From NCBI GenBank assembly GCA_004295015.1, contig SHNE01000021.1, positions 1 to 64,000 of the forward strand: DNA of 64,000 nt, written 5' to 3'. The notes under the pieces were generated by a model that saw only the letters and a program-made list of their open reading frames with translations, did no database searches and had not been told where the DNA came from. Shown piece after piece: positions 28,329 through 36,659 of the stretch (position 1 is its first letter; every line of letters begins with the position of its first letter). Made by a program: the position numbers and the translations under genes. The stretch is from Bacteroidota bacterium. GTDB taxonomy: Bacteria; Bacteroidota; Bacteroidia; AKYH767-A; 2013-40CM-41-45.

Positions 28329-31300
28329 TTATCGAATAAGACTAACTCTACCCGTATATCTGTATTGGCGACCATCCATATCACTCGCCTGAACTATATA
28401 TACGTATACATCCATTTGGCAAGGATTATCAGAGCCCGCTCTTTTTCCATCCCAGGCTTCCTTTTCATCCGATGAATGAAAAATTTCCAATCCCCAACGA
28501 TCAAGAATAACCATATAAACATCTTTGGCACCCATGGTTAAAGGGAAGAATGTTTCGTTTATACCATCTCTGTTTGGGGTGAATGCCGATGGAATGTATA
28601 TTGCAAATTCTCCCTTAATCCTCACAGGTTTTGTAATAGTATCTGTGCATCCATGTACGTTTTCAGAAATTAATTGTACTAAAAATGTTCCGGTATCGCT
28701 GTACTGATGCTCTGGATTTGTCAAGGTTGACAGACCGGTTTCATCACCAAAATTCCAGACATATTTTATCGCATCATGACTTTCATTGCTAAATGAAATC
28801 ACCGGTGATTGTACTGTTGCAGCTTCAGGACTCGAATAAAAGTCGGCAACAGGCAGCGAGAATGCAGTTGCTGTTTGTGGAATTGTCTCTTCGGCCGAAC
28901 AGTTATATGAATTCGTTACGATATGAGTCACGGTATATATTCCCGGTTCCATATAGGTATGTTCGGGTTTAGCTTCAGTTGAATAATTGCCATCACCGAA
29001 ATTCCAATAATGGGACAACTGATTCTGATTGGCATTCTTGGAATTGAATGGAACTTTAAGGGGCACACATCCTGAAACAGGAAAGGGCAGGAATGTTGGG
29101 TCTGGATTTGAAATTGCGGTCACGCTGAATGTAGTCGAAGCAGAAGGGCTTCCGCAATTATCCTGCACCGTTACGGTGTACGTTGTTGAATTGTTTATTT
29201 GTACTGAGGTGTTCTGCTGGTTGGAACCATTTGACCAATTATATGTATAGGGACCACCGTCACCACCACTTGCATTGGCCGACAGATAGGCAACTCCTCC
29301 GACACAGACAGAATCTGTTCCGGCTGTAATAGCCAGCAGGGGAGAATGAACCCTTACTATCACCGAATCAGGATTGCTGATGCAACCTTTAGCGTCAGCT
29401 ATGTGCACTGTGTAAGTAGTACTCTGTGAAGGAATGACCTGTATAGTTTGGCCATTTACTCCATGCCCCCAAATGAAATTGTAAGGACTTGTTCCACCTA
29501 TACCTTGCACGGTGATAATTGAACTTTGTCCTATGCAAATGATTTGAGGATCTGAAAGAGACAGAGATAATGATGTAGGCTCCTTTGTAAGTACTGTTTT
29601 GTTTATGTTACATCCATTTTGATCAGTGATGCTAACAGAATGCAATCCTGCTGTTAATTGTGTTACTGATGATCCGGTTTGTCCGTCATTCCAATAATAG
29701 TGATAAGGGGAAGTGCCTCCTGTGACAGTGATTGAAGCTGAACCATCATTTCCACCGAAACAATTTACATCCGAACTTTGCAGGAAACTTTGCAATTCAT
29801 CCGGTTCATTGATTTGGACCCATTGTTGTGCCGGACATCCATGTGCATCATTAATCGTCACCAGATAATTTCCTGCGTGAAGATTAGTTTGTGAAGAACC
29901 TGATGAGCCTGATGCAGACCAATGATATGAATATGGAGAAACACCACCTGAAACATTGATTGTTGCGCTCCCATCAGAGAAATTTTTACAGCTTGCATCA
30001 TTTTTAGTAAAACTTGTTGCAAGAGGAGAAGGTTCAGAGATCAATGTCAGATTGCTTTCTGTGCAACCGTTCGCATCTGTGACAAGCACAGAATAATTTC
30101 CTGCCGGCAAACCTGTAATTGTACTATGAGTAGATCCATTTGACCAGGAGTATGAGTAGCCTGCAGTTCCACCTGAGCATTGCACAATTGCCTGACCATC
30201 CTGACCACCATAACATGTAACCGGAGTAGAAATTGAACGAAGGATGAGAGCGTTCGGTTGTTGAACAAGAATATCCGATGTGCTTATGCAACCTCTGGAG
30301 TCGGTGACGGTAGCTCTATATGTTCCACTTGGCAATTGAAATATTGTTGAATCACTTTGACCGTTTGACCAATTGTATGTATAGGGTGCAGTACCGCCAC
30401 TTACACTCACAGCAGCCTGACCGTTGCTCTTTCCGTAACAGCTTGCCGGTGTCGATGTACAATATGTACTTATGAGTGGCGGCTCGGAAATAATGAATGC
30501 CAGCGCGGTAACACAATTGTTTGAATCAGTAATTGTAACTGAATGATTCCCTGCAGACAAATTTGAAGCAGTGGCACTCCTTGAGGTGGAGGAAGACCAT
30601 TGATATATATAAGGCGCAGTTCCTGTGCTTATACTTACTGTAGCTTGTCCGTCATTTCCACCGAAACAACTCACCGGGAGAACTGTGGATAGTTGTGCAG
30701 TTGGCCCACTGGTATTGGAGATTGCAATGGATGTTGTTTTTACACAGTTTTTTGCATCAGTAATGGTTACCTGATATGATCCGGATGGAATGTTTGTAAG
30801 AGTCGATCCTGTTGCATTTCCACTATTCCATAAGTATGTTAAAGGTCTGGTCCCACCTGTAACTGAAACACTGGCAGAGCCATTCGCGAGATTACATCCT
30901 GCAGGATTTGTGCTATAGGCTATTTCCAGCGGCGGAGGTTGGCTTATACTGACATTGACAGTAGAAATACAATTATTGGCATCCTTTATTGTCACAGAAT
31001 AAATACCTGTATCCAGGTTGTTAGCTGACTCCAGATTTCCTCCATAGGGTGTCCAGGAATAAAAGTAAGGTGCTGTTCCTCCAGTTGCAACAACGCTTCC
31101 GCTTCCATCATGGCCGCCAAAACAACTTACCATCGATGTGTTTCGCACACCTGCATTAAGTGCAGTTGGGGAATTAATGGTTAATGATTGAGTGAGTACA
31201 CAGCCATTCCGATCTGTTATTGTAGCAGTATAATTTCCTGCAGCAAGCCCTGTGATGGTGCTGCTTGTGGTGTTTCCTGTTGACCAGCTGTATGCGTATG

Positions 31301-34300
31301 GTGGAGTTCCGCCGCCGGCGATAAGCGTTGCCTGCCCATCATTTGTTCCGAAACACCGCGTCAATTCTGTTGAGCTTTGAGCTCTAAGTGCCGGCGGTTC
31401 TGTGATGGTGAATGGTATAATGGAACTGCAATTGTTAGCATCAGTAATTGTTACTGTGTGATTGCCTGAACCCAGGTTCGAAATAACAGGCGCATTTACT
31501 GTTGAGCCCGACCATTGATAGCTGATTGGCATTCTTCCACCACTCACAGTCAAGCTGACGCTGGCATCACGGACTCCATTGCATGATACATGATTTAAGT
31601 TTGAAATTTGTACCTGCGGTCCGGCTAAATCAGCAAGACTGATGCTGGCCATAGTATTACAGCTATGGGCATCTGTAATTTCCACTTGAAAGGTTCCGGC
31701 CGCAACATTCGAAATTGTAGAACCCGTTTCTCCGTTTGGATTCCAAAGGTAAGTGTAAGGCTGTACCCCGCCACTTACAAAGGCAGAGGCAGTACCATTC
31801 GCCAGGCCACATGTTGTTGCTGACCCCGAAGTAGTAACTGTTAGTTGCGGAGGTTCCGATATAGTAAGATTCAATACGCTGATACAGTTGTTGGCATCCC
31901 TTATTGTCACACTATAGATACCAGCGGAAAGACCTGTAGCTGTTGCGTTTGATCCTCCATAGGGAGACCAGGAATATGAATAGGGTGATGTTCCCCCGGA
32001 AGCTGACACTGTTGCAGTTCCATCATTTCCACCATAGCAATTAACTGCTGTATTATTCGCTACAGAACCACTCAAAGGAGGAGGAGACGAAACCGTGTTT
32101 GAAACACTTGCAGTACAACCATTTTGGTCTGTAATGATAGCAGAATAACTTCCTGAACTCAAAGATGCAATTCCTGAATTTGTCGAACTTCCGCTCGACC
32201 AAGTATATGTATAAGGTGCATTTCCTCCACTTGAAGAGACCGACATCTGTCCGTCATTTCCGCCGAAGCAACTGGTGTTTGTAACTATGCTTTGCAAGGA
32301 TAATGCACTTGGTTGACTGATAGTAAAGGGAAGTGCAGTAACGCAGTTGTTCGCATCAGTAATGCTCACTGAGTATGAGCCGGCCATCAGATTTAAAATG
32401 GATGATGCGTTAATTGCGGAGCCCGACCATTGATAAGTAAATGGTGCTGTTCCACCGTTGGTTACAACTCCCGCACTCCCGTCAGATCCTCCATGGCAAT
32501 TTACATTTCTAAGGGTAGAAATTACAGATGTAGGACCACTTGTATTTGAAACCGCTATTGTTGTGCTTAGTTCACAATTGTTAGCATCTGATACCCTTAC
32601 CTGATATGAGCCGGATCGGATGTTTGATAATATAGGCGAGTTTGAGTTGACTTGTGACCATGAATAATTGTAAGGACTAGTTCCGCCACTCACATTAATG
32701 CTCGCTGAACCATTGGATAGGTTGCATCCTGCTGGTACAGTGCTGTAAGAAAGATGTAGAGGACTCGGTTCTGAAATGGTAACATTTATAGATTGAATAC
32801 AATTGTTAGCATCCCGGATTCTTACAGTATATGTTCCGGTGTCTAATCCATTGGCTGTAGCACTTGTTCCACCATAGGGCATCCATTGATATGAATATGG
32901 CGCTGTTCCTCCGGATACTGCGATCCTTGCTGAACCATCATTCCCCCCTGCACATCTGACCGGTGAATTGCTTACGGTAACAACACTTAATTGAGTAGCC
33001 GAATTAACGGAGTTTGAACAAATGCTTGTACAGCCGTAACGGTCTGTCACTCTTGCAGTATACGTTCCGCTTGAAATACTCGTCAAAGTTGCATTGGTTG
33101 AGCCACCGGGTGTCCAATTGTAACTATAAGGGGGAGAACCACCGAAAGCATTTACGGAGACCTGTCCATCGCTGCCTCCATAACAACTTACAGGGTTTGA
33201 GCTACCTGAGGATTGTAAGACCGGAGGCTGATTAATAGTAAATGCAGAAATCGAAGTGCAATTGTTTGCATCGGTAACGATTACTGAATAATTTCCTGCT
33301 GAGAGACTTGACGCAGCTGAAGTATTCGATGCACCATTCGACCACTGATAAGTGTATGGGCCGGTTCCTCCATTTACTACAACAACTGCACTACCGTCAT
33401 TGGCACCCGAACATCGTGCATGATTTAGTGAGGCTATGCTTGAGGTCGGACCGTTGATATTTGAAACAGATACCGAGGTAGTGACTGAACAATTTTGCGC
33501 ATCAGTGATTGTTGCCTGATAAGTTCCTGATAGTAGATTGCTGATAGAAGACAATGTGGAACCTGTATTCCATGTATAGTTAAATGGTGCAGTCCCACCT
33601 AAAGCTGTAATTGATGCACTTCCATTAGCGAATCCACACGTTGATGATGAGGAATTAGTTATTGAATTGAGTTGTGGTGCTTGAGAGATACTCACAGGCA
33701 AAGTATAACTGCAATTATTTCCATCAGTAATTCGAACCGAATAGTTTCCACTCGTCATTCCTGTGGCAGCAGCCATAGTACCTCCTGATGGACTCCACGA
33801 ATAAGTGTAAGGTGAAGTTCCTCCGGTTGGAATGATGCTTGCAGAACCACCATTACCTCCAAAGCATCTCACATTAGTTGTGCTGCTTATTTGTGCACTA
33901 AGTACCGGTGGAGCATATACTTCTTTGCTTGACGTGGATGTACATCCATACTGATCGGTAACCCTTACCGTGTATATCCCTGCAGCTAACCCATTAATCG
34001 TTGATGTGGATCCGGATCCCGGGCTCCATGAATATTGAAAGGGTGCTGTCCCTGTTGGAAGAACTGATGCACTTCCTGTGGCGCTTCCTGCGCAACGTGC
34101 GTCTGTTGTATTTGTAACAAGAGATAATCCCGGCACTAACACACTGTATGAATAGGCCTGAATTCCCTTGCTCGGACAATTATTGTCTTTTACTGTGATA
34201 GTGAAAGTATAAGCTTGTGATTGTGCATCGGCAAGCGTAGGTGTCCAGGTGAATGTTCCTGTTGGTCTGTTACTGCTATTTGTCGTAAATGATCCATTAG

Positions 34301-35321
34301 CAATTCCACCGTCCCAATCCATGCTTACTATTTGCCCATTGTCTAAATCATTTGAAAGAATATTGAAGCTTAATGGCTTTCCCGGACAGGCAACAATGGA
34401 ATAGCTGTTCGTTCCATTTACACCTGAGGCTGTTGGCAATCTGTTTGTACACGGCTGAGTATATACCTGCATATCTCTGATTACAGAACCTATCAGAATT
34501 CCTCCTCTGTATTCTCTTACCAGAATTGCCATGACACCAACTTCGGCGGCAGTTGGATTGAGTACGATATCTCCTGTAGATGAAAGTGATAATGGTGGTG
34601 AAGAGCTGATTGGATTTGTAGCTGAATACCCGGGGGCAAAGGTGACGTTAGTTCCTGCGGCAGATCGGGGAGGAATGAATGAGTAAACAACAGAATCACC
34701 ATTCGCATCGTAAGCGCCGTGATTGTAATGAAATGCTTGTCCGATACAAAAGAATGCAACCGGTAAATTTGAAAAGACCGGAGATGAATTATTAGGAGCA
34801 ATAAGATTATTTAATGTCGCTTCAATATATGTTGCCGGTGCTCCGGAACAATTGGGAGGACTGAATGTAAGCGTTGTGATCGCACAGTTCCGACAGCAAA
34901 TACTATATCCAAACACCCAATCGGAACACCGGGCAGGGAGAGTTACCAGTCCGATGTATTCGTACTTCTGAATTCCGGGACTAATCCCGCCACCACAAGT
35001 TGTCGGTGATGAACTACAGGGTTGTGTGATTTCTTGTCCTGTGCCGGGTTTTTTATTGAGAACAACACTCAAATTATATCCGCACGTTGCTGATCTATAA
35101 TTTATTGAGACTGCGTTTGGGGCAGTAATTCCTGAACAATCTCGGTAAAGGGTGAGTTCCAGTTCAAAGGTATTTCCGCTAATCCAGGTATACGTCAAGT
35201 CAGCTCCGCTGATATGTGTTGCATTTGTTCTTGATGTAGCACATAACATAAGTGCCGTAAGCGTAAAATACGCAACGCGCCTCAGGATTGTAGCACTCCA
35301 CTTCAATAAAAAGAAATTCAT
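28329..35321 (-). CDS. Giant SprB-repeat cell-surface protein, T9SS type B C-terminus
   Basis: This 2330-residue exported adhesin-like protein is read from the ATG at 35321; an upstream TTG at 35345 would add eight residues before the signal peptide (VAYFTLTALMLCATSRTNA). Order of parts: an N-terminal cysteine-containing region (THISGADLTYTW to about residue 390) with a tandem-beta module; 20 SprB repeats of about 76 residues (C-x-G-x2-DG-x-A, GGTAPYxYxWS, TDxNxC); two Ig-like repeats; two PKD domains (YWNFGDGNYST, YVWNFGDETGL); and the gliding-motility-type C-terminal domain (YIPSAFTPNRDGINE, ILDRWGLEIF) that directs T9SS export and surface attachment. SprB itself is the mobile adhesin of gliding Flavobacterium. 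Gliding is possible here but not shown. Tandem structure makes assembly errors possible. Confidence 0.93.
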   Translation of the reverse strand: MNFFLLKWSATILRRVAYFTLTALMLCATSRTNATHISGADLTYTWISGNTFELELTLYRDCSGITAPNAVSINYRSATCGYNLSVVLNKKPGTGQEITQPCSSSPTTCGGGISPGIQKYEYIGLVTLPARCSDWVFGYSICCRNCAITTLTFSPPNCSGAPATYIEATLNNLIAPNNSSPVFSNLPVAFFCIGQAFHYNHGAYDANGDSVVYSFIPPRSAAGTNVTFAPGYSATNPISSSPPLSLSSTGDIVLNPTAAEVGVMAILVREYRGGILIGSVIRDMQVYTQPCTNRLPTASGVNGTNSYSIVACPGKPLSFNILSNDLDNGQIVSMDWDGGIANGSFTTNSSNRPTGTFTWTPTLADAQSQAYTFTITVKDNNCPSKGIQAYSYSVLVPGLSLVTNTTDARCAGSATGSASVLPTGTAPFQYSWSPGSGSTSTINGLAAGIYTVRVTDQYGCTSTSSKEVYAPPVLSAQISSTTNVRCFGGNGGSASIIPTGGTSPYTYSWSPSGGTMAAATGMTSGNYSVRITDGNNCSYTLPVSISQAPQLNSITNSSSSTCGFANGSASITALGGTAPFNYTWNTGSTLSSISNLLSGTYQATITDAQNCSVTTSVSVSNINGPTSSIASLNHARCSGANDGSAVVVVNGGTGPYTYQWSNGASNTSAASSLSAGNYSVIVTDANNCTSISAFTINQPPVLQSSGSSNPVSCYGGSDGQVSVNAFGGSPPYSYNWTPGGSTNATLTSISSGTYTARVTDRYGCTSICSNSVNSATQLSVVTVSNSPVRCAGGNDGSARIAVSGGTAPYSYQWMPYGGTSATANGLDTGTYTVRIRDANNCIQSINVTISEPSPLHLSYSTVPAGCNLSNGSASINVSGGTSPYNYSWSQVNSNSPILSNIRSGSYQVRVSDANNCELSTTIAVSNTSGPTSVISTLRNVNCHGGSDGSAGVVTNGGTAPFTYQWSGSAINASSILNLMAGSYSVSITDANNCVTALPFTISQPSALSLQSIVTNTSCFGGNDGQMSVSSSGGNAPYTYTWSSGSSTNSGIASLSSGSYSAIITDQNGCTASVSNTVSSPPPLSGSVANNTAVNCYGGNDGTATVSASGGTSPYSYSWSPYGGSNATATGLSAGIYSVTIRDANNCISVLNLTISEPPQLTVTTSGSATTCGLANGTASAFVSGGVQPYTYLWNPNGETGSTISNVAAGTFQVEITDAHSCNTMASISLADLAGPQVQISNLNHVSCNGVRDASVSLTVSGGRMPISYQWSGSTVNAPVISNLGSGNHTVTITDANNCSSIIPFTITEPPALRAQSSTELTRCFGTNDGQATLIAGGGTPPYAYSWSTGNTTSSTITGLAAGNYTATITDRNGCVLTQSLTINSPTALNAGVRNTSMVSCFGGHDGSGSVVATGGTAPYFYSWTPYGGNLESANNLDTGIYSVTIKDANNCISTVNVSISQPPPLEIAYSTNPAGCNLANGSASVSVTGGTRPLTYLWNSGNATGSTLTNIPSGSYQVTITDAKNCVKTTSIAISNTSGPTAQLSTVLPVSCFGGNDGQATVSISTGTAPYIYQWSSSTSRSATASNLSAGNHSVTITDSNNCVTALAFIISEPPLISTYCTSTPASCYGKSNGQAAVSVSGGTAPYTYNWSNGQSDSTIFQLPSGTYRATVTDSRGCISTSDILVQQPNALILRSISTPVTCYGGQDGQAIVQCSGGTAGYSYSWSNGSTHSTITGLPAGNYSVLVTDANGCTESNLTLISEPSPLATSFTKNDASCKNFSDGSATINVSGGVSPYSYHWSASGSSGSSQTNLHAGNYLVTINDAHGCPAQQWVQINEPDELQSFLQSSDVNCFGGNDGSASITVTGGTSPYHYYWNDGQTGSSVTQLTAGLHSVSITDQNGCNINKTVLTKEPTSLSLSLSDPQIICIGQSSIITVQGIGGTSPYNFIWGHGVNGQTIQVIPSQSTTYTVHIADAKGCISNPDSVIVRVHSPLLAITAGTDSVCVGGVAYLSANASGGDGGPYTYNWSNGSNQQNTSVQINNSTTYTVTVQDNCGSPSASTTFSVTAISNPDPTFLPFPVSGCVPLKVPFNSKNANQNQLSHYWNFGDGNYSTEAKPEHTYMEPGIYTVTHIVTNSYNCSAEETIPQTATAFSLPVADFYSSPEAATVQSPVISFSNESHDAIKYVWNFGDETGLSTLTNPEHQYSDTGTFLVQLISENVHGCTDTITKPVRIKGEFAIYIPSAFTPNRDGINETFFPLTMGAKDVYMVILDRWGLEIFHSSDEKEAWDGKRAGSDNPCQMDVYVYIVQASDMDGRQYRYTGRVSLIR
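29550..34130 (-). repeat. Array of 20 SprB repeats
   Basis: Twenty successive units of 73-78 codons each carry the same skeleton: cysteine, G-x-N/S-DG, a GGTxPYxYxW core, a GxYxVxITDxNxC turn and a closing P-x-L. Sequence divergence between neighbours is high, while units four apart are much more alike. The last three (18-20) depart from the alternating order of the first seventeen. Confidence 0.9.
30470..34130 (-). repeat. Higher-order tandem: four copies of a four-repeat block, 915-bp period
   Basis: SprB repeats 1-16 follow the order D-A-B-C four times, where A has a PYGG-type core and ends ISEPPxL, B begins CxLxNGSAS and ends SNxxGPT, C has YQWSxS and ALPFTISxP, and D ends in DxxGC. Landmarks confirm the period at the DNA level: the PYGG-codon element lies at 31039, 31954, 32869 and 33781, and the B-type CCATT element at 30880, 31795, 32710 and 33622, which gives spacings of 915, 915 and 912 for both. 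Confidence 0.88.
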
Positions 35322-35630
35322 ATTCAAAACTGCCCTTAGAATCAAACTTTGTCATTTTTGACAAGCATGATTTAATAGCTACCCTTGAGACGAAAGAAAT
35401 TCTTTGGAGTTGAATGATTTTCAATGCTTTTCTTACATGAAGAATCACTGTGCTTATTGGTGGAAATGCTAAATTCAGGTGGTTTCCATCCATCGATTGT
35501 TCAGTAAAAGTCAAAAATTCTCATTCTGCAAAGCCATATTCCGCTAAATTGGCAGGGTAAATAACAATTGGCCTGGTCAGAAGAATGCTTTATGCCGGTC
35601 AGATTATGAGATTTTATTCTTCAGAAAAAC

Positions 35631-36659
35631 ATGAATTCAATTTCTAAGAAAAAACAAAGTTACAGGGTAAGCGAGGAACTCTTCATTTACCTTGAAGACT
35701 TTGGTCGTGTGGAGTCTTTGCCTTTTCGTTATCAGGATTTGCTCCGGTTTAATTTTGCAATACCGCTTCTCGACAAATTTGGAAAAGACACGCTGTGGGA
35801 AACTGTATTTTATCAACCTGTTGAGACAGAAGAATTAAATCAACGTTTGGTTCAGACTTATGCATTGATGAAGGTAGAAGGTGATATGCGTTTAATGGAG
35901 CATCTCTATGTAGACCGGATCGATTTTTGTCCCTTTGGTAATTCCAAGCCGTTCCGGATTAGAATAAAGAATCAATTTAATGATAACTATGATTACTACT
36001 ATGTGAAGCTTGCCGATGCATCTCGTGTTTACGGGCTCGAATTTGAAGATTTGCTCTCACCTAACAGGATTAATTTTCTTGTCGATTCTGACACGCTTGT
36101 TGAAGAACATATCATTGGTATTCCCGGGGATCAATTTGCCCATTCCAATTTGCTTGAACCTGAAATCAACAGAACAAGGTTGGCAAAGGAATTCATTAAG
36201 TTTAATGAACGTTGTTTTGTTCGTCTGCTTGGAGATATGCGTTCCTATAATTTTGTGATTGATATGACGCTGGACTTTGACGATACACAGTTCAGATTTC
36301 GTGCTATTGATTTCGATCAGCAAAGCTATGAAGGAAGAAAGGCTTTGTACCTTCCTCAGTATTTCAAAGAGAATAATCCATATGTTGATCTGTGTGTAAA
36401 GTTTATAAATAAGGAAACGGCTAAACAGTATCAGCTCGAAGAAAGATCACTCATGGCCAGACGATTGAAAATTGCTCATTTTCGACTGGCAGCTCTTTTG
36501 GAAGTGATGATTCAGGATACTGTTTCTCTCAAGGATAAAACGGAACAACTCCGCAGAGAACTTGCAGAACACTATAAAAAAGAATCTTTTCTTAAATGTA
36601 GAAACATGGGAGAAATTATGCGTCTAAGTTTGAACTTGTTGCTGGAACATTCTGCATGA
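35631..36659 (+). CDS. Unknown protein with a protein-kinase/APH-like residue pattern
   Basis: I do not recognise a named family for this 342-residue cytoplasmic protein (no signal, no membrane segment). From residue 108 on, the order of residues resembles a kinase/aminoglycoside-phosphotransferase fold: a beta-strand lysine (YYYVKLAD, K126), glutamates in a following helix (E137/E139), a hinge-like strand (LVEEHIIGIPGD), then LLGDMRSYNFVID with D202 and N207 in catalytic-loop spacing, and RAIDFDQQS with D227-F-D229 where a DFG/DFD metal-binding motif should be. The N-terminal 100 residues are novel to me. It stands alone, divergent from the giant adhesin gene. Kinase activity is inference only. 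Confidence 0.6.
   Translation: MNSISKKKQSYRVSEELFIYLEDFGRVESLPFRYQDLLRFNFAIPLLDKFGKDTLWETVFYQPVETEELNQRLVQTYALMKVEGDMRLMEHLYVDRIDFCPFGNSKPFRIRIKNQFNDNYDYYYVKLADASRVYGLEFEDLLSPNRINFLVDSDTLVEEHIIGIPGDQFAHSNLLEPEINRTRLAKEFIKFNERCFVRLLGDMRSYNFVIDMTLDFDDTQFRFRAIDFDQQSYEGRKALYLPQYFKENNPYVDLCVKFINKETAKQYQLEERSLMARRLKIAHFRLAALLEVMIQDTVSLKDKTEQLRRELAEHYKKESFLKCRNMGEIMRLSLNLLLEHSA

Follow-up and report, generated by a model that had tools for sequence, protein, structure and literature searches.

The repeat shaft of a giant SprB-repeat protein, a putative adhesin encoded in the window (the whole stretch of 64,000 nucleotides of Bacteroidota DNA analysed here), contains a four-domain super-repeat that is real, old and specific to its lineage. 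The reading that we favour, and consider probable if far from certain, is that of a titin-like super-repeat of Ig-like domains, which arose through an old block duplication and carries a periodic variant joint at one of its four unit types, B. The wider value of this finding lies in the B subtype itself and in its biased spacing in the arrays of other Bacteroidota, of which no earlier description was found in the literature searched. The positions of the gene, its domains and its repeat units (R1-R20) are collected in Table 1.

Table 1. Gene, domains and repeat units of the SprB-repeat protein (positions in the window; unit lengths in residues)
Feature	Position	Strand	Length (aa)	Remark
Gene of SprB-repeat protein	28329..35345	-	2338	one open frame, counted from TTG
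Signal peptide and conserved N-terminal domain	34110..35321	-	about 375	without named family
Whole SprB array (R1-R20)	29538-34094	-
Cyclic part (R2-R16)	30441-33866	-
R1	33867..34094	-	76	first unit, not clearly D; groups with first unit of orthologs
R2, type A	33639..33866	-	76
R3, type B	33414..33638	-	75	short loop and SNINGPT linker
R4, type C	33186..33413	-	76
R5, type D	32955..33185	-	77
R6, type A	32727..32954	-	76
R7, type B	32499..32726	-	76
R8, type C	32271..32498	-	76
R9, type D	32040..32270	-	77
R10, type A	31812..32039	-	76
R11, type B	31584..31811	-	76
R12, type C	31356..31583	-	76
R13, type D	31125..31355	-	77
R14, type A	30897..31124	-	76
R15, type B	30669..30896	-	76
R16, type C	30441..30668	-	76	last of cyclic part
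R17-R20, acyclic tail	29538..30440	-	75, 75, 76, 75	R17 weakly D-like
Two decayed SprB-like units	29079..29537	-		counterparts in both orthologs
Two PKD domains	28623..29057	-
Type B T9SS C-terminal sorting domain	28332..28598	-		TIGR04131 / CHU_C

The stretch 28329-35321, which the original prediction had labelled as a super-repeat, corresponds to the gene, of which the array and its cyclic part cover only portions; the ATG at 35321, which opens the signal peptide, is a likelier start than the TTG at 35345. The SprB repeat family PF13573 matches the protein with 582 bits in 20 stretches, above the Pfam cut-off, and cutting the units at their first Cys gives 20 units of 75-77 residues, among which a Gly-Pro linker is found only in R3, R7, R11 and R15. 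The C-terminal domain scores 36.3 bits against a cut-off of 35 for TIGR04131, and 42.3 bits in a second profile search. Given that the genome encodes the translocon protein SprA (on contig C31, 2626.8 bits), the gliding track protein GldJ and five strong homologs of PorP/SprF, and that it has about 21 type B sorting domains with scores above the cut-off, export of the window protein by the T9SS can be soundly inferred from sequence. None of the seven matches to TIGR03519 (PorP/SprF-like anchor genes) in the genome lies on the contig of the window (C8), and the neighbours of the gene are metH and a TolC/HlyD pair, with no sprF-type gene adjoining; an adjacent PorP/SprF gene is common for type B T9SS cargo and not defining. 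Unlike the window gene, two SprB-array paralogs at contig ends of the same genome (G000:C48 and G000:C45) have a PorP/SprF-like gene beginning immediately after them. The N-terminal domain (34110-35237, reverse strand) matched no Pfam, NCBIfam or PDB family, and its model, built on an alignment of two sequences, was poor (pLDDT 41.5). At E<=1e-20 it was detected in 124 of 149 relatives, and genomes in the family of the window often carry about ten copies; it may form the head of numerous T9SS surface proteins. A frame of 342 aa that runs divergently from the adhesin gene (35631-36659, forward strand) has no Pfam or NCBIfam match. Apart from its super-repeat, the window protein is a typical SprB-repeat T9SS protein.

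The four-unit period is seen in the identity between units as well as in their phylogeny. Over R1-R16, amino-acid identity amounts to 47.5, 49.3 and 47.9% at lags of 4, 8 and 12 units and to about 34-40% at the remaining lags; the excess at multiples of four (11.7 points) was reached by none of 20,000 permutations of the unit order, and again by none of 20,000 when R1 was left out (49.1 vs 36.4%). A tree of the 20 units contains one group per type, with support of 98/99 for B, 85/81 for A, 73/81 for C and 44/24 for D, and rejects all four 'neighbouring block' clades (AU p 1e-3 to 4e-10). Every fourth unit thus clusters and neighbours do not, the reverse of the topology that had been named in advance as a refutation. 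With z = 6.7, the window ranks third among the period-4 arrays in a table of 127 arrays, after L181 (9.3) and L120 (8.1).

A joint tree with the units of two orthologs defines the limits of the cycle. The proposed fourfold succession D-A-B-C over R1-R16 holds as a four-type cycle, on the strength of identity, permutations and tree, and D is clear only three times, in R5, R9 and R13, which form a clade without R1 (98/88). R1, which had been taken for a D unit, is 76 and not 77 residues long and joins the first units of the two orthologs (98/79), so that the cycle is better written as A-B-C-(D-A-B-C)x3, running from R2 to R16. Likeness to D is weak at best in R1 (41-43% vs 37%) as well as in R17 (40-41% vs 36%). 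The two orthologs, L039 (genome G006) and L040 (G009), belong to two other genera and match both ends of the protein, with 65 and 68% in the N-domain and 45 and 41% in the C-terminal region, against 23-27% in long C-terminal matches of the other loci compared. Each of them has 25 units and two decayed ones, a difference of five from the 20 units here that does not agree with the suggested variation of array length in multiples of four; R18 and R19 are matched by units in the tail of one ortholog. Their B units occupy positions 4, 11, 17, 20 and 4, 11, 18, 21, which is mainly a seven-unit pattern with a step of 3, and seven is the best period in both (p 0.02 and 0.20 over 25 units; p 0.14 and 0.05 over the first 20 or 21 units). 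Since orthologs with N-domains 65-68% identical have a seven-unit pattern, a period of four is not required by the function of the gene, and the four-unit step is lineage specific, not the fixed structural period that the original prediction had implied. The other genome of the same genus has no such ortholog, its best N-domain match (56%) being followed by an array of another paralog type.

Several paralogs show arrays of other kinds. In the same genome, L011 (G000:C24:37500-46000, reverse strand) repeats with a period of four units across 11 units (p 0.011), with its Gly-Pro linker units four apart. A 17-unit paralog with near-constant irregular unit lengths (78,77,79,82,75,82,75,80,81,80,82...) occurs in L009 (G000:C48), L042, L046 and L049, and is a frozen array in four genomes, as against the changing array of the window gene. 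L041 (G013:C24), of whose 31 units nearly all have 77 aa and several neighbours are nearly identical, represents recent single-unit duplication, the opposite mode to that of the window gene.

All eight landmark coordinates on which the period had been based are present in the sequence, with spacings of 915, 915 and 912 bp, except that the landmark at 33781 reads PSGG in place of PYGG. The super-repeat had been called exact, which is true of its spacing and not of its sequence, as DNA identity between the copies of the block is about 54%; the 304-305 residues between B units follow simply from four times a unit length of 76, and are equally exact in other arrays (304, 304, 304, 304). Synonymous identity is 0.40 between units of the same type and 0.38 between units of different types (0.33 vs 0.35 at four-fold sites), no exact DNA repeat in R1-R17 exceeds 17 bp, and Tandem Repeats Finder detected nothing, which together indicate an old pattern held at the protein level. 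With such low DNA identity between its blocks and so short a longest repeat, the array does not qualify as a recent satellite-like higher-order repeat. The saturation of synonymous sites and the 17-bp limit also imply that the exchange is ancient and that misassembly is implausible. Thus, an artefact of assembly or a satellite-like array in recent expansion, which a repeat-rich gene in a draft genome of 56 contigs might bring to mind, is highly improbable, the more so as both ends of the protein align with orthologs.

As judged from the sequences, block copying would be the simplest origin of the cycle. In the joint tree, D (98/88, as above), A (98/93, without R2) and B (100/89) form window-only clades beside the ortholog units, in agreement with the original proposal that the four-unit block was the unit of duplication, here for this lineage. 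That D, which is not adjacent to B, is also such a clade favours block duplication over a mere constraint on the neighbours of B. A (including R2) and C are each not monophyletic in the joint tree, with a single clade not rejected for either (AU p 0.21 and 0.28). Units twelve positions apart are no less alike than units four apart, and the succession of the block duplications was not recovered. Mosaic exchange between blocks, prompted by conflicting subtrees, was not firmly supported by a bootstrap on identities. Of the unequal exchange in 915-bp steps that had been suggested, the copying of blocks stands, and an ongoing or DNA-traceable exchange does not, synonymous identity being equal within and between types. 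We infer that the shaft, a chain of Ig-like SprB domains of about 76 residues each, would have grown in this lineage as a block of four domains (A-B-C-D, 915 bp) was copied in tandem, probably through unequal recombination, and long enough ago for synonymous sites to be randomised, while protein-level conservation of domain size and type would have kept the pattern visible.

Beyond the window, the B units are of particular interest. One residue is missing from them behind the first Cys, and their end reads SN-x-x-GP instead of [EQ]-P; these two features, the short loop and the Gly linker, lie some 50 residues apart in the unit and co-occur with an odds ratio of 39 (p 5e-146; 2,094 units from up to 153 arrays, 35 + 41 + 77). 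All B units of the window protein and of the two orthologs form one clade (96/80, joint tree). By these sequence features, B is a distinct, phylum-wide SprB subtype, characterised by a short loop and a Gly-Pro instead of a Glu/Gln-Pro linker. Its spacing was analysed in three array samples, namely homologs of the N-domain, matches to a four-unit profile, which form a biased sample, and 79 loci from GTDB that were retrieved with a query containing no B unit and hence without selection for B. As the strongest even bias comes from the four-unit-profile arrays, our claim rests on the other two samples, unselected for B, after exclusion of the window and clustering of the arrays by the similarity of their B units. 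There, the fraction of gaps of four was 0.28 (p 0.0008) when B was defined by an HMM and 0.39 (p 0.0002) when it was defined by its two features, against 0.13 expected in both cases, and even gaps made up 0.74 vs 0.60 (p 0.009) and 0.80 vs 0.59 (p 0.002), respectively. As gaps within one array depend on each other, trust should be placed in the test at the level of arrays; at least two gap-4 steps were found in 4 (p 0.012, HMM) or 6 arrays (p 0.0004, two-feature), compared with 1.1 expected. In these samples outside the window, B recurs at every fourth position two to three times as often as expected by chance, and even spacings are favoured. A strict law of even spacing was not adopted, as some arrays have spacings of 3 or 7.

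Two alternatives to the favoured reading bear on this bias. The cycle might be duplication history devoid of function, with a chance copy of four units here and of seven elsewhere and with purifying selection acting on single domains only. This account, which we regard as possible and not as the leading one, fits the seven-unit pattern of the orthologs and the behaviour of SprB arrays at large, as neighbour clustering, that is, single-unit turnover, is found at p<=0.01 in 50 of the 127 arrays and any higher-order period at p<=0.01 in only 25 (13 with four, 9 of these from the biased sample, 7 with two, 3 with three, 1 with five and 1 with seven). However, random block sizes would not be expected to yield a bias of B to four or even spacings across independent array clusters with few adjacent B units, which are rare, and the types persist despite saturated DNA. 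Conversely, a structural rule might operate, in which domains alternate in orientation, B joints come to lie on the same face at a spacing of 2 or 4, and types are kept or re-created by selection and not only inherited. We find this rather unlikely, despite an excess of even gaps in every sample, gaps of 2 and 4 side by side within several arrays (L122, L126, L127 and L146) and a weak resemblance of the units flanking B across arrays (42.6 vs 41.3% at the same offset; 0 of 2,000 permutations), because spacings of 3 and 7 occur, including in the orthologs of the window gene, because the window-only D clade points to block copying, and because the even bias is strongest in the sample that was found with a four-unit profile. 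The more general idea that SprB arrays across Bacteroidota place the B joint at every second or fourth domain as a result of domains alternating in orientation along the filament is tentative; if it were true, the four-domain cycle of the window would be one manifestation of a filament geometry shared across the phylum. In L056 and L135, B alternates with ordinary units in a two-unit period, and L196 and L216, with B spacings mainly of 3, 4 and 6, are exceptions to even spacing.

Returning to the titin-like super-repeat that we prefer, an AF2 model of R6-R9, for which 40 four-unit blocks were aligned, has a mean pLDDT of 94.6 and a pTM of 0.63, the latter being a weak guide to joint flexibility. 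The model is all-beta with about six strands per unit, and the SprB units are predicted to be Ig-like beta-sandwich domains. The junction from unit to unit is located in the EPPxL/GPT linker in this model, and with the domain border within the linker, the Gly-Pro stretch of B is the joint between B and C. As B ends in Gly-Pro where most units end in Glu/Gln-Pro, one joint in four differs from the others. By analogy with titin super-repeats, we propose that the B joint is a periodic hinge or change of twist, which would give the rod a regular bend or flexibility.

The best structural matches of the model are fragments of GhpA (Z 10-11), titin I65-I70 (Z 10.2) and tandems of fibronectin type III domains. 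GhpA, the grappling hook protein of Aureispira (PDB 9flp and others), is the closest solved relative by sequence profile (E 9e-45) as well as by fold, although it is larger (5898 aa), its individual domain matches are weak and we know of no four-domain super-repeat in it. Hoc-like Ig decoration proteins of phages share the Ig-like fold, with a match to PHROG 2973 at E 1.5e-80; they are, however, short capsid decoration proteins without a T9SS signal and without a long array. SprB, the adhesin used in gliding by Flavobacterium johnsoniae and a filament of 6497 aa (PMC9870892) that is bound by SprF (PMC9143113), has in common with the window protein PF13573 repeats, a type B T9SS C-terminal domain and a long repetitive shaft, whereas the window protein has 2338 aa, no PorP/SprF gene on its contig and at most a putative role in gliding. 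The A-band and I-band super-repeats of titin likewise consist of Ig/FnIII-type domains; in them, domains at equal positions are most alike, linker classes are periodic, and recursive block duplication is the proposed history (PMC10665226). Proline linkers limit hinge motion in titin (PMC10665226). In the window protein, units at equal positions are also most alike and linker classes are also periodic, but titin is a eukaryotic muscle protein unrelated by sequence, whose super-repeats are thought to match the periodicity of the thick filament, whereas no partner periodicity is known for the window protein.

Giant surface proteins of Bacteroidota often contain SprB-type arrays, the four-unit profile being matched by 126 of 149 relatives, and little has been published on the organisation of SprB shafts in the literature searched. 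With a regularly spaced marker subtype, an apparently monotonous array becomes a segmented one, and the return of B at each second or fourth unit of many related proteins points to a modular rod, its special joints set at regular intervals, much as in titin. The spacing of B may provide a handle on the stiffness and length of these filaments, as well as a bacterial, sequence-level analogue of titin super-repeats.
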